NCBI GenBank assembly: GCA_003561215.1 | Contig: PWXG01000040.1 | Coordinates: 1 to 40,934, forward strand | Length of the DNA stretch: 40,934 bases | Direction: 5' to 3' | Origin: Thermotogales bacterium | GTDB lineage: Bacteria; Thermotogota; Thermotogae; Petrotogales; Kosmotogaceae | Shown: positions 5,380 to 36,718 of the stretch, in pieces | How positions within the stretch are numbered: position 1 is the stretch's first letter | How the letters are laid out: each line of letters starts with the position of its first letter | Position numbers and translations under genes: made by a program | The notes under the pieces: model-generated | What the model was told of the DNA's origin: nothing | Seen by the model: the letters and a program-made list of their open reading frames with translations, nothing else | Databases searched by the model: none

Positions 5380-6606
5380 ATGAAGAAATGGTTATTCACA
5401 AGTGAAAGTGTAACGGAAGGACACCCTGACAAAGTTGCAGACCAGATCTCGGACGCCATACTGGACGCTCTGCTTGAACAAGACCCTAATTCACGAGCAG
5501 CTGTAGAAACTCTTCTCGCAACCGGCATTGCCGTGATCGCGGGAGAGGTAACGACAAGGGCATATGCCGATATAGCGAGAGTAGTGCGCGATACTATAGT
5601 GGATATCGGCTATACAAGAGCGAAGTATGGATTCGACGGTGAAACCTGCGCTGTCTTTACGAGCATTGAAGAACAGTCTCCCGACATAGCGCTTGGTGTA
5701 GACACGTCTTATGAAGCCAGGCATGAACGAAAGAACGACTACGACCTGATAGGTGCAGGCGATCAGGGGATGATGTTCGGATATGCCACTTCGGAGACCC
5801 CCGAAATGATGCCTCTTCCTATTGTTCTTGCTCACAGGCTGGCTTTTGCTCTTGCAAGGGCAAGAAAGACCAAGACCGTTAAGGGGTTCAGACCGGATGG
5901 AAAGAGCCAGGTTACAATCCAGTACGAGGGAGACAGAGCTGTTGGGGTCAAAACAATTGTAGTGTCTACACAACATGATCCCGAGCTTTCTACGCTTGAT
6001 ATCGAAAATGCGGTCAGAGAGTACGTGATCAAGCCCTCCATACCGGAGAGTCTCATGATGAATGATATACAGTTGTTCGTCAATCCTACCGGAAGATTTG
6101 TAAAGGGAGGTCCTGCGGCAGACACCGGACTCACCGGGCGGAAAATAATCGTTGATACCTATGGCGGCTGGATTCCCCATGGGGGCGGTGCTTTCAGCGG
6201 GAAAGACGCCACCAAGGGGGACCGTTCCGCTCATTACATGGCCAGATATGTTGCGAAGAACGTTGTCGCTGCCGGCCTTGCAGAGCGCATGACTCTTCAA
6301 CTCGCATATGCCATCGGAGTGGCGCACCCGGTTTCCTTCATGATTGACACTCATGGGACAGAGCAGGTTGACCCGGAAAGACTTGAGAAGACGCTCATAG
6401 AGATGTTTGATTTCCGTCCTGCGGCGATAATCGACCATCTTAAGCTGACCAGGCCTTTGTATAAGAGAACTGCTGCATATGGACACTTTGGAAGAACTGA
6501 CTACTTGTTTTCGTGGGAAAAGACTGATGCCGTTCAAGAACTACAACGAGCTTTCAATTTTTCGGATCGCGTGATAGAATCAACTGGAACGGAAAGGAGG
6601 ACCTGA
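5380..6606 (+). CDS. metK: S-adenosylmethionine synthetase
   Basis: 408 residues; ATG preceded by AAGGAGG at good spacing. It makes SAM from methionine and ATP. Family motifs in order: [19 protein letters not shown] near the N-terminus, [12 protein letters not shown], and the glycine-rich GGGAFSGKD loop followed by [13 protein letters not shown]. In the loop segment this protein reads [12 protein letters not shown] where the family usually has KDPTKVDRSAAY or close variants, so two or three normally invariant positions differ. Length is normal. It supplies methyl groups for the methyltransferases in this window (RsmJ-like, PrmA). rpsT follows after 3 nt. Confidence 0.97.
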
Positions 6607-25103: not shown

Positions 25104-25370
25104 ACACCATGCATCCTCCTTCGAAACACTGACCCGGGTCTAACAAAGCTTCCAGCTCCGTCCGAGCTACCTCACGGCACACGGTTAACCCGCTTATGGC
25201 TGCTTCCTTCCGGACCTGACCAAATTCACGGGGTTCCGTTGCGTGAGACTCGGCCTTCAACACCTTCCACTTTGCCGATTACCGAACCAATGTGCCTCTG
25301 GAGGCGTTCGGCCTCGCGTATGGCGGCTTTCGAGTACAGGGAACCGCCAGCTCCCCGCCTAGCATGGTGT
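25104..25370 (-). ncRNA. ffs: Signal recognition particle RNA, long form with Alu domain
   Basis: The universal S-domain hairpin GGTCAGGTCCGGAAGGAAGC lies on the minus strand at about 25201-25221 (GGAA tetraloop and the asymmetric loop bound by Ffh). About 150 nt 5' of it is an Alu-type domain starting GCTAGGCGGGGAGCTGG and CCCTGTACTCGAAAGCCGCC, which resembles Bacillus scRNA. The ends pair: ACACCATGC at the 5' end with GCATGGTGT at the 3' end (plus-strand 25362-25370 and 25104-25112), giving about 267 nt. So this is the long SRP RNA of Firmicutes/Thermotogae, not the short 4.5S form. It scaffolds co-translational membrane targeting. Confidence 0.93.
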
Positions 25371-34543: not shown

Positions 34544-35026
34544 TCACGCCTTCTTTTCGTCTGACTTGTCTTCTGGTTTATCTGGCGGGCTGTTCGGAAC
34601 AACTGAATTATCAGGAAGTGCTTCTTCCAAAGCCTGGTCAGTACTTTCGGTGGGTGCCTCTTCAGGAACAGCAACAGCCGCTTCTTCGGGCTTGTCTGTC
34701 TTCTTTGGTGAGGGGGCTTTTTCCAGGTCTTCTCTTCTGAAAGTCTGCCACCTGAAGATTTCCGGAGTGACGTTGTAGAGTCTTTCAAGTCCAAGGACGG
34801 TCTCAGCGTCTGCATCAAACAGGATTACCGAGTAGTCTCCTTCAGCAAATCCCTTGCGCACGCGATAGGCGAGCTTCTTGATTCCCCATCTGTCAACTGA
34901 TCTGATTTCTCCGCCTACACGCTCTTCGATGTAAGCCTTTACCTTCTCTACAATTGATTCTCTCTCTTCTTCATCGATTCGCGGAGAAACGATGAAGAGA
35001 GTCTCGTATATTCTTCTTCTACCCAT
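34544..35026 (-). CDS. rpsF: 30S ribosomal protein S6 with an extended acidic tail
   Basis: 160 residues. The first ~95 residues are a normal S6 (RRIYETLFIVSPRIDEEE, WGIKKLAYRVRKGFAEGDY, FRREDLEK). The remaining ~60 are low-complexity and rich in Pro, Glu and Ala (PEEAAVAVPEEAPTES), longer than the usual S6 tail and probably disordered. First gene of the rpsF-ssb-rpsR-rplI cluster and of the long - strand run. Confidence 0.95.
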   Translation of the reverse strand: MGRRRIYETLFIVSPRIDEEERESIVEKVKAYIEERVGGEIRSVDRWGIKKLAYRVRKGFAEGDYSVILFDADAETVLGLERLYNVTPEIFRWQTFRREDLEKAPSPKKTDKPEEAAVAVPEEAPTESTDQALEEALPDNSVVPNSPPDKPEDKSDEKKA

Positions 35027-35080
35027 ATTAACCTCCCATGGCCATTGGCTTTGTCCACGGACAAAGCGGGATTGTTGTCA
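35027..35080 (-). promoter_or_regulatory. rpsF 5' leader with S6:S18-type binding hairpin
   Basis: Transcribed from the promoter at 35087-35115, the leader contains the stem GCTTTGTC/GACAAAGC (plus-strand 35048-35067) with a 4-nt loop. It is preceded directly by CCCG and followed by CCAATGGCCATGGGAGG, which includes the ribosome site. A CCG next to an apical hairpin before rpsF is the hallmark of the known S6:S18 autoregulatory leader. Assignment is by position and pattern; pairing of the outer helix is only partly clear (CCC with GGG). Confidence 0.5.
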
Positions 35081-35086
35081 AAGGGA

Positions 35087-35115
35087 AGTATAACACAGCA
35101 CACCGTTGTTATCCA
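35087..35115 (-). promoter_or_regulatory. Promoter for the rpsF operon
   Basis: On the minus strand TGGATA (35110-35115), 17-nt spacer and TATACT (35087-35092) preceded by TGT, an extended -10. It places the start about 50 nt before rpsF. Confidence 0.6.
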
Positions 35116-35140
35116 GCGCAAAGACATCCGGGAAGCTGAT

Positions 35141-35270
35141 CGCCAGGAACTGGCGAAAAGAGGAGCCGCAGGGATAGCGGCGAAGCGAATCTGGCAAAGA
35201 TCGCCAGAGATGCGTAATGGCCAGGAACGGGCCATGAAGCGGATTGAGCAAAGAGCGTTCAACCCGCTTC
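35141..35270 (+). repeat. Array of five small hairpins with purine-type 7-nt loops
   Basis: Five consecutive inverted repeats. Stems and loops (+ strand): CGCC-AGGAACT-GGCG (35141-35155, can extend inward to CGCCAG/CTGGCG); GCCGC-AGGGATA-GCGGC (35165-35181); TCTGGC-AAAGATC-GCCAGA (35190-35208); ATGGCC-AGGAACG-GGCCAT (35217-35235); and a 13-bp stem with one mismatch around AAAGAGC (35236-35270). Loop centres are 25, 26, 27 and 27 nt apart. Stems are unrelated in sequence, while loops fit A-R-R-R-A-N-N. A decayed sixth loop AAAGACA lies at 35120-35126. The array sits between the divergent rpsF and tldD promoters. Confidence 0.7.
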
Positions 35271-35281
35271 GTGAAAAGCAG

Positions 35282-35290
35282 TGTTATAAT
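35282..35290 (+). promoter_or_regulatory. Extended -10 for tldD
   Basis: TGTTATAAT at 35282-35290 is a perfect extended -10; no matching -35 at 17 nt. It lies 42 nt before the tldD TTG start and immediately after the hairpin array. Confidence 0.55.
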
Positions 35291-35332
35291 GATCCTAATG
35301 ACCGCTTCATCATATTCGCGGAGGTGAACTCC

Positions 35333-36718
35333 TTGCTAGATCCAAAGATCGCCCACGCTGTTCTCGATGCTGCGTTGGATAATGGCGCGGATTTTGCGGA
35401 ACTCTTTGTAGAATTGAGGTACTCCACAGAGATATCAATGCTGAACGGCAAGGTCGAAAGCGCTGTATCGGGAACTTTATGCGGAACAGGTGTCAGGGTC
35501 TTCTCTGGTACTACGAGTGCCTATGGACACACGAATGACCTGAGTATTGATTCGCTCAGTGAATTGGCTGCAAGACTGGCAAGATCCACGGGCAGTTCTT
35601 TGTCAAAGAGAGAGACTAAGACACCCCACAGACCTGATATCAAGAACCGTCACATGATCCTGCTTAGTCCTGATGCTGTTGAACCTTCTGAGAAAGCCGC
35701 GATCATGAAACTGGCTAATGAAGGAGCGCGAAGCGTCTCGGATCTCGTTGTCCAGGTTCTTGTATCTTATATAGATAGCGTTCAGACTGTTTGGATCTTC
35801 AACAGTGACGGGCTACAGATCGACGACCGCAGAGTCAGAACCCGCCTCACTATACGTTCTGTTGCCGAGTACGAGGGCACAAGAGAGACAGCTCACTACT
35901 CTCCTGGTTCGGGTCTGGGAATCGAATTCTATAATACCTTCGATGTAAGGGAAGCCGCCAAGAGACCATCCAGAATGGCGAGCAAAATGGTTAGGTCCAG
36001 ACATGCGCCGGCGGGAAAGATGCCTGTTGTCATCTCGAACGGTTTTGGTGGCGTGATATTTCACGAGGCCTGCGGCCATGCGCTCGAGGCTACAAGCGTT
36101 GCGAAGGGCGCTTCTGTCTTCTCCGGGAAATTGGACCAGAAAGTCGCCTCGGAATGCGTTTCGGCCATGGATGATCCAACAATTCCTAATGCATGGGGAT
36201 CAGCAAACATTGATGATGAAGGCAAAGAGACAAGGCCTAATTTGTTGATAGAAAGAGGCATTCTCAAGTCCTACATGGTGGACAGGCTCAACGGCATGAA
36301 GATGTCCATGGAATCCACTTCGAGCGCTCGAAGACAGGACTACACGTACCCGCCTACTTCGAGAATGAGCAACACGTTTATCACCGCGGGCAATCTTCTT
36401 CCGGAGGAGATCATAGCCGCAACAGAATATGGTCTTTACGCCAAGAGTCTTGGCGGAGGTTCCGTAACCCCTTCGACGGGAGAGTATAACTTTGCAGTTA
36501 CTGAAGGATACCTCATTGACAAGGGCAGAATAACCGAATCCGTAAGAGGCGCCACTCTTATTGGAAAAGGGCACGAGACTCTTAAGAAGATTGACATGGT
36601 CGGATGTGATCTGTCTAGAGAACAGGGGATGTGCGGCTCTGCTTCAGGAATGATCCCTGCAGACGTCGGGCAGCCCACAATCAGGGTCTCTGAATTGATT
36701 GTTGGAGGTCGAAGCTGA
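35333..36718 (+). CDS. tldD: TldD metalloprotease subunit
   Basis: 461 residues from the TTG at 35333, chosen because GGAGGTG lies 6 nt upstream and the protein then starts LDPKIAHAVLDAALDNGADFAE as in the family; a much longer upstream frame crosses the promoter and hairpin array. TldD carries the zinc motif HEACGH (in IFHEACGHALEATS) and a C-terminal CGSASG region. With TldE it forms a heterodimeric peptidase that degrades unfolded or modified peptides, for instance in microcin and CcdA processing. Confidence 0.94.
   Translation: MLDPKIAHAVLDAALDNGADFAELFVELRYSTEISMLNGKVESAVSGTLCGTGVRVFSGTTSAYGHTNDLSIDSLSELAARLARSTGSSLSKRETKTPHRPDIKNRHMILLSPDAVEPSEKAAIMKLANEGARSVSDLVVQVLVSYIDSVQTVWIFNSDGLQIDDRRVRTRLTIRSVAEYEGTRETAHYSPGSGLGIEFYNTFDVREAAKRPSRMASKMVRSRHAPAGKMPVVISNGFGGVIFHEACGHALEATSVAKGASVFSGKLDQKVASECVSAMDDPTIPNAWGSANIDDEGKETRPNLLIERGILKSYMVDRLNGMKMSMESTSSARRQDYTYPPTSRMSNTFITAGNLLPEEIIAATEYGLYAKSLGGGSVTPSTGEYNFAVTEGYLIDKGRITESVRGATLIGKGHETLKKIDMVGCDLSREQGMCGSASGMIPADVGQPTIRVSELIVGGRS

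Follow-up and report, generated by a model that had tools for sequence, protein, structure and literature searches.

The array between rpsF and tldD

The window analysed here is a stretch of 40,934 nucleotides from a Thermotogales bacterium (contig PWXG01000040.1). Between rpsF and a tldD-family gene it carries five contiguous units (35132-35262), each consisting of an 8-nt linker, a stem arm of 5-6 bp, a 7-nt A-rich loop, and the returning stem arm. The features of the locus, together with an RNA gene of the same window, are listed below.

25107-25367, - strand: bacterial large SRP RNA (RF01854, 165 bits), which served as the RNA control
34544-35026, - strand: rpsF, 30S ribosomal protein S6, the left neighbour of the array
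35132-35156, + strand: unit 1, linker GAAGCTGA, stem TCGCC/GGCGA, loop AGGAACT
35157-35181, + strand: unit 2, linker AAAGAGGA (decayed), stem GCCGC/GCGGC, loop AGGGATA
35182-35208, + strand: unit 3, linker GAAGCGAA, stem TCTGGC/GCCAGA, loop AAAGATC; the stem type also occurs in other arrays of both array-bearing genomes
35209-35235, + strand: unit 4, linker GATGCGTA, stem ATGGCC/GGCCAT, loop AGGAACG; the stem type also occurs in other arrays; covariance-model match of 40.6 bits
35236-35262, + strand: unit 5, linker GAAGCGGA, stem TTGAGC/GTTCAA (one G-T), loop AAAGAGC; the stem type is the commonest of the family, with 14 perfect copies elsewhere
35263-35273, + strand: 3' boundary CCCGCTTCGTG, which matches the reverse complement of the last linker imperfectly and lengthens the last stem
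35283-35291, + strand: TGTTATAAT, likely the extended -10 box of tldD, judged by sequence comparison and conserved in the sister species
35324-36718, + strand: tldD-family metalloprotease gene, the right neighbour of the array

The S6 protein was by far closest to chain 1vmb (119 bits; the next chain scored 48 bits), the Thermotoga maritima protein, in keeping with a genome of Thermotogota. The array ends 20 nt before the putative extended -10 box of tldD. When a wider contig collection was searched for the tldD locus, only two distant TldD genes were returned.

The original prediction had placed five back-to-back inverted repeats between rpsF (-) and tldD (+), with loop centres 25-27 nt apart and stems that differ from each other and are almost perfectly self-complementary. 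All of this was confirmed. The loop centres lie at 35148, 35173, 35199, 35226, and 35253 (spacings of 25, 26, 27, and 27 nt), four of the five stems are perfect Watson-Crick helices, and the fifth contains one G-T pair. A sixth loop-like element was also proposed upstream; the stretch at 35120 holds no recognisable unit. A strict search for runs (stems of at least 5 Watson-Crick pairs, centres 24-28 nt apart) gave a run of four in the window and runs of at most three in 200 block shuffles. The folding z-score of the array was -4.6 as RNA, and -4.9 and -5.9 for the two strands as DNA. With the 3' boundary included, the last stem has arms at 35233-35247 and 35259-35273 with a complementarity of 87%.

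An Rfam scan of the window at the gathering threshold matched SRP RNA as the sole family. In the interval 34950-35400, no intrinsic terminator (a hairpin followed by a T run) was found on the + strand, and two were found on the - strand, one of them inside unit 2.

A dispersed family of hairpin arrays

A BLAST comparison of the rpsF-tldD gap with its own genome gave partial matches on other contigs, and a linker-spacing pattern gave 68 matches against 8 for the reversed control pattern. With a dynamic-programming parser, 49 arrays comprising 269 units (3-18 units per array) were recognised on the contigs analysed, which came from the own genome (about 0.28 Mb in total) and one same-genus genome. 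The unit plan and the linker were seen in 140 candidate units, and position frequencies gave the linker consensus GAAGC[GTC][GA][AG]. The main unit lengths are 25 nt (5-bp stem) and 27 nt (6-bp stem). When units were chosen by the linker alone, the spacing still peaked at 25 nt (55 units) and 27 nt (79 units), versus 5-16 units at other spacings. Within an array, every unit is oriented head to tail. The loops are purine-rich and measure 7 nt in 193 of 213 well-scored units, and the stems are diverse, with 44 perfect arm sequences among 109 perfect units; the family can be described as a vocabulary of stems on an invariant frame. The GGA loop motif of a CsrA/RsmA sponge does not characterise the modelled units, in which loop positions 2 and 3 are mostly A (61-67%; G 26-30%), in agreement with the original doubt about this function. 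One deviant unit, TCGT-CGCTTCGCG-ACGA, recurs in the arrays L053 and L057 at an internal or last position, and its loop holds the reverse complement of the linker core (CGCTTC).

The suggestion of a new tandem-repeat class of covarying hairpins was correct. The conserved 8-nt linker, similar to GAAGCGGA, and the genome-wide dispersal had been missed.

The frame 35045-36718 is open through the window array and in phase with tldD (557 codons), as would be expected if the array encoded an N-terminal repeat of an extended TldD. However, units of 25 and 27 nt alternate, so that no reading frame is kept, and among 42 longer arrays a sense frame is open in 22 and an antisense frame in 27. In addition, the usual start of tldD is preceded by a ribosome-binding-like GGAGGTG, and no equivalent of the array is present in the sister species. 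The probability of a coding repeat is practically negligible, and the open frame is probably fortuitous, as the units contain few stop codons.

A covariance model matched 90 times in the own genome and 28 times in the same-genus genome, with 1 marginal match among 19 other relatives. Across 103 genomes of the phylum, it found this genus and otherwise one weak single match; single weak matches were recorded in G010 and G042. A generic scan for hairpin runs in two array-free genera of the family yielded one run of three in 280 kb and none in 120 kb, so no analogous arrays with another linker were found in the DNA of those two genera. The 18-unit array had no match among plasmid and phage records. 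A pattern scan of IMG/VR returned 14 contigs, the best with 20.5 bits in the model, and these were taken as chance or coding repeats. No description of such arrays in this lineage was found in the open-access literature. According to the accessible part of a REP survey that includes Mesotoga prima, the REP motifs of Thermotogota resemble no others (PMC12306157), and that part describes no such arrays. Apparently, the family is genus-specific dispersed hairpin-array DNA that was previously undescribed.

Adjacent unit types are shared by different arrays in the same order (statistic of 43 versus a mean of 9.6 and a maximum of 22 in 500 shuffles), and stretches of roughly 100-400 nt can be aligned from one locus to another at 70-95%. 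Whole blocks of several hairpins have thus been copied. Of five comparable sites in the sister species, four are without an array. One of them is the rpsF-tldD gap, where the flanks match and 98 nt of unrelated sequence occupy the place of the array; neither a target-site duplication nor a clean empty site is definable there. The other three sites lie behind the WD40 gene, before the catalase gene, and after the HD-GYP gene. The exception is found behind the S33 hydrolase gene, where the first unit is common to both species. The coaX site was left out of the count, as no orthologous flank was found for the own genome. Together, the shared unit order and the four empty sister sites indicate that the array spreads.

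The genes flanking the arrays are unrelated to each other. Based on simple open frames tallied by hand, of the 29 arrays with a credible 5'-side gene, 21 follow a gene of the same sense, as opposed to 8 that do not (p=0.024); for arrays within 60 nt of that gene, the ratio is 13:3. Some arrays overlap the gene end or provide its stop codon (L090, L067).

Other repeats were observed in the same intergenic regions. The arrays L053, L055, and L058 follow paralogous genes for formylglycine-generating-enzyme-like lipoproteins with 47-57% mutual identity. A second periodic repeat, CTCGCACGACNGNGNTTTCGTRRGTC, with about 27 nt per unit and a conserved ACGA/TCGT stem, stands beside some arrays (L058, G000:C199, below 205 on the - strand; also L069 and L079). 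Degenerate repeats CAACCGCTCTTG / CAACCTGCTCTTG with a spacing of about 15 nt occur in many array flanks, for example in L060 (~5868-5900) and in the reverse complement of L116 (~1010-1050 and ~1330-1370). Runs of GGGTCCAGGGTCC were seen in L116 (reverse complement, ~1060-1200) and in the 9-mer enrichment over the contigs, and GTAGGGGCA...TGCCCCTAC palindromes with differing centres were noted in the L116 region or the 9-mer enrichment. The intergenic repeat TCGGATTTCATCCGAAGGGCACAGCA lies directly 5' of several hairpin arrays, with the junction ACAGCAAGTCAG.

Covariation and mismatches of the stems

Compensatory covariation is usually read as proof of functional RNA. In 50 aligned 27-nt units, 96% of the cells were paired, 125 cells were double-changed, and the covariation score was 1.07 versus 0.26 for shuffled units; each of the six stem pairs shows changes in both arms. 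Because these 50 units had been picked for pairing, the test was redone on units chosen by the linkers alone. With pairing ignored in this way, 137 of 238 units had at most one non-Watson-Crick pair.

This strong covariation and the RNA folding z-score would suit a functional RNA. The arrays would then be transcribed 3' untranslated regions whose serial hairpins shield mRNA ends or serve as protein-binding sites via the conserved purine loops and linkers, with the stems kept by RNA selection. The same-sense position right behind stop codons, and the arrays L090 and L067 at gene ends, agree with such a role. The mismatch spectrum does not. In a stem under RNA selection, G-U is tolerated and A-C is not, whereas a DNA palindrome in neutral decay accumulates the two equally. 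In array units with at most two non-Watson-Crick pairs, the ratio of GT to AC was 30:44. For the SRP RNA encoded in the window, the Rfam alignment gave a ratio of GU to AC of 15:2 (Fisher p=0.0004 for the difference, with related units not fully independent). As G-T and A-C are about equally common in the arrays, unlike in SRP RNA, RNA-level selection on the stems is not supported. Close copies of an array differ almost solely by single, uncompensated stem changes, and double Watson-Crick changes are seen between more distant copies. Further points against a functional RNA are that the array sites are not conserved between sister species and that the window shows no Rfam family except SRP. The array at tldD need not be transcribed, as its position is upstream of both the likely promoter and the divergent rpsF. 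We consider a functional RNA unlikely.

The original view that structure rather than sequence is kept holds in part. Covariation across units is real, but the sister gap without an array, the missing G-U tolerance, and the uncompensated changes between close copies do not fit conservation of structure. The same three observations speak against the proposed structured RNA or cruciform switch specific for rpsF and tldD. Overall, the original interpretation is partly supported.

Mutation alone could also shape the stems. Template switching during replication would keep correcting short quasi-palindromes between fixed linkers, with neither selection nor mobility involved. Such events can create and mend stems with the loop sequence retained (PMC8794818), which fits the invariant loop and linker and the changing stems. 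The symmetrical mismatch spectrum, as in neutral decay, is consistent with it, and the last stem of the window array continues into a linker-complement copy, as snap-back would leave. However, direct footprints are few, as this stem extension is present in one array of 49 (CGCTTC lies no more than 40 nt from the 3' end in this array alone). Stem changes among close copies are almost all single and uncorrected, which means that correction is not fast. In aligned homologous segments, 9.7% of linker, 17.4% of stem, and 22.9% of loop positions differed, as a rough measure from segment pairs that are not independent. Template switching on its own leaves the conserved linker, the conserved loop, and the dispersal unexplained. 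We regard it as a tentative possibility, and it is compatible with the explanation preferred below.

Origin of the arrays and comparison with known systems

The window array is probably one copy of a dispersed, genus-specific repetitive extragenic hairpin DNA, similar to REP elements and spread by the copying of multi-hairpin DNA segments. Its unit is the unpaired 8-nt tag of the linker consensus followed by a stem of 5-6 bp with a purine-rich 7-nt loop, joined head to tail in a 25- or 27-nt register. The source of the arrays may be an ancestral multi-hairpin array in which some tens of different stems were already present. Segments of it would have been copied to new intergenic sites, often right behind stop codons and also beside promoters, as at tldD, where they would shrink, recombine at common linkers, and decay. 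The arrays could persist because self-folding single-strand DNA gets copied, with no RNA or protein product needed. The data show the family, its anatomy, and its turnover; we infer that a single-strand DNA process performs the copying. Stem complementarity may come from templated copying from arm to arm (template switching) or may be demanded by the copying machinery.

No REP-type Y1 transposase (Y1_Tnp, PF01797) was found in the two array-bearing genomes (drafts, 90-93% complete), and the domain is present in 6 of 11 array-free relatives searched. The absence of this family from both genomes suggests that another enzyme acts, or that replication and recombination produce the copies incidentally. 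It also counts against the REP-like reading, since the search revealed no copying agent in either genome. The same-sense downstream bias (21:8) could hint at a transcribed role, and the conservation of loops and linkers, as well as the first unit common to both species at the S33 hydrolase site and the missing target-site duplication and clean empty site at rpsF-tldD, stand against the REP-like reading too. A more specific proposal is that of selfish hairpin-array DNA, in which a single-strand-acting enzyme of the genus would read the 8-nt tag and the purine loop and copy or append whole hairpins whatever their stem. The copying step itself would then require complementarity. We consider this proposal somewhat unlikely.

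The array looks like a DNA-level repeat rather than a working RNA. A bacterial repeat family displays strong covariation over more than 200 units, yet its mismatch pattern and turnover point to DNA. It offers a natural test case of whether template switching or a hairpin-reading enzyme can yield RNA-like covariation without RNA selection, and it calls for caution in covariance-based RNA discovery in intergenic DNA.

Among known systems, a structured non-coding RNA would show G-U tolerance, conservation at orthologous loci, and a match to a described family, and none of these was observed. The arrays resemble CRISPR arrays in that short direct repeats recur at a fixed distance and enclose sequences that differ. 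Unlike CRISPR, which has longer repeats and unique spacers that are not self-complementary, the family has a repeat of only 8 nt, its inserts are self-complementary hairpins from a vocabulary common to several loci, and its arrays are numerous and dispersed. As far as the accessible parts of the sources go, the family is also similar to the hairpin elements of mitochondria, namely the DHE of Allomyces (cited in PMC7218506) and the RHE of sponges (PMC2800124). These are mobile-looking intergenic hairpin DNA, sometimes serial, optional between close species, and of types that differ by complementary substitutions. In contrast, they are organellar, the stems of sponge RHE are longer, and the accessible text describes neither a conserved 8-nt linker nor a fixed register.

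The closest likeness is to REPs, which have an unpaired conserved tag beside a stem-loop, vary in the stem by complementary changes, and lie near gene 3' ends (PMC3733652, PMC3116915). Like the GTAG and CGTC super-families and their clusters or BIMEs, the hairpin arrays combine an unpaired tag with a covarying stem-loop in tens to hundreds of intergenic copies, lie near gene 3' ends where some supply stop codons, and vary in presence between close species. CGTC-3 REPs have moreover been reported from K. olearia and M. prima (PMC3733652). A true member of these super-families, mobilised by a RAYT (Y1 tyrosine transposase), would share such properties, but we find it very unlikely here. The GTAG super-family has an unpaired GTAG tag at the end of the stem-loop, and the CGTC super-family has a CGTC, TGTC, or CCTC tag, a stem of 8-9 bp, and a loop of 4-5 nt. 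The tag of the present family is neither of these and is longer, and its stem of 5-6 bp closes a 7-nt purine loop. REPs predominantly form inverted pairs (HH/TT dimers), whereas the units here stand strictly head to tail in arrays of 3-18 with a 25/27-nt register. The large stem diversity and the lack of a G-T excess differ from REPs as well, and no RAYT was found in either array-bearing genome, yet Y1_Tnp occurs in six array-free relatives. In a looser sense, the family does agree with REPs, as it comprises many dispersed extragenic copies of a tag and a stem-loop at sites that differ between close species.
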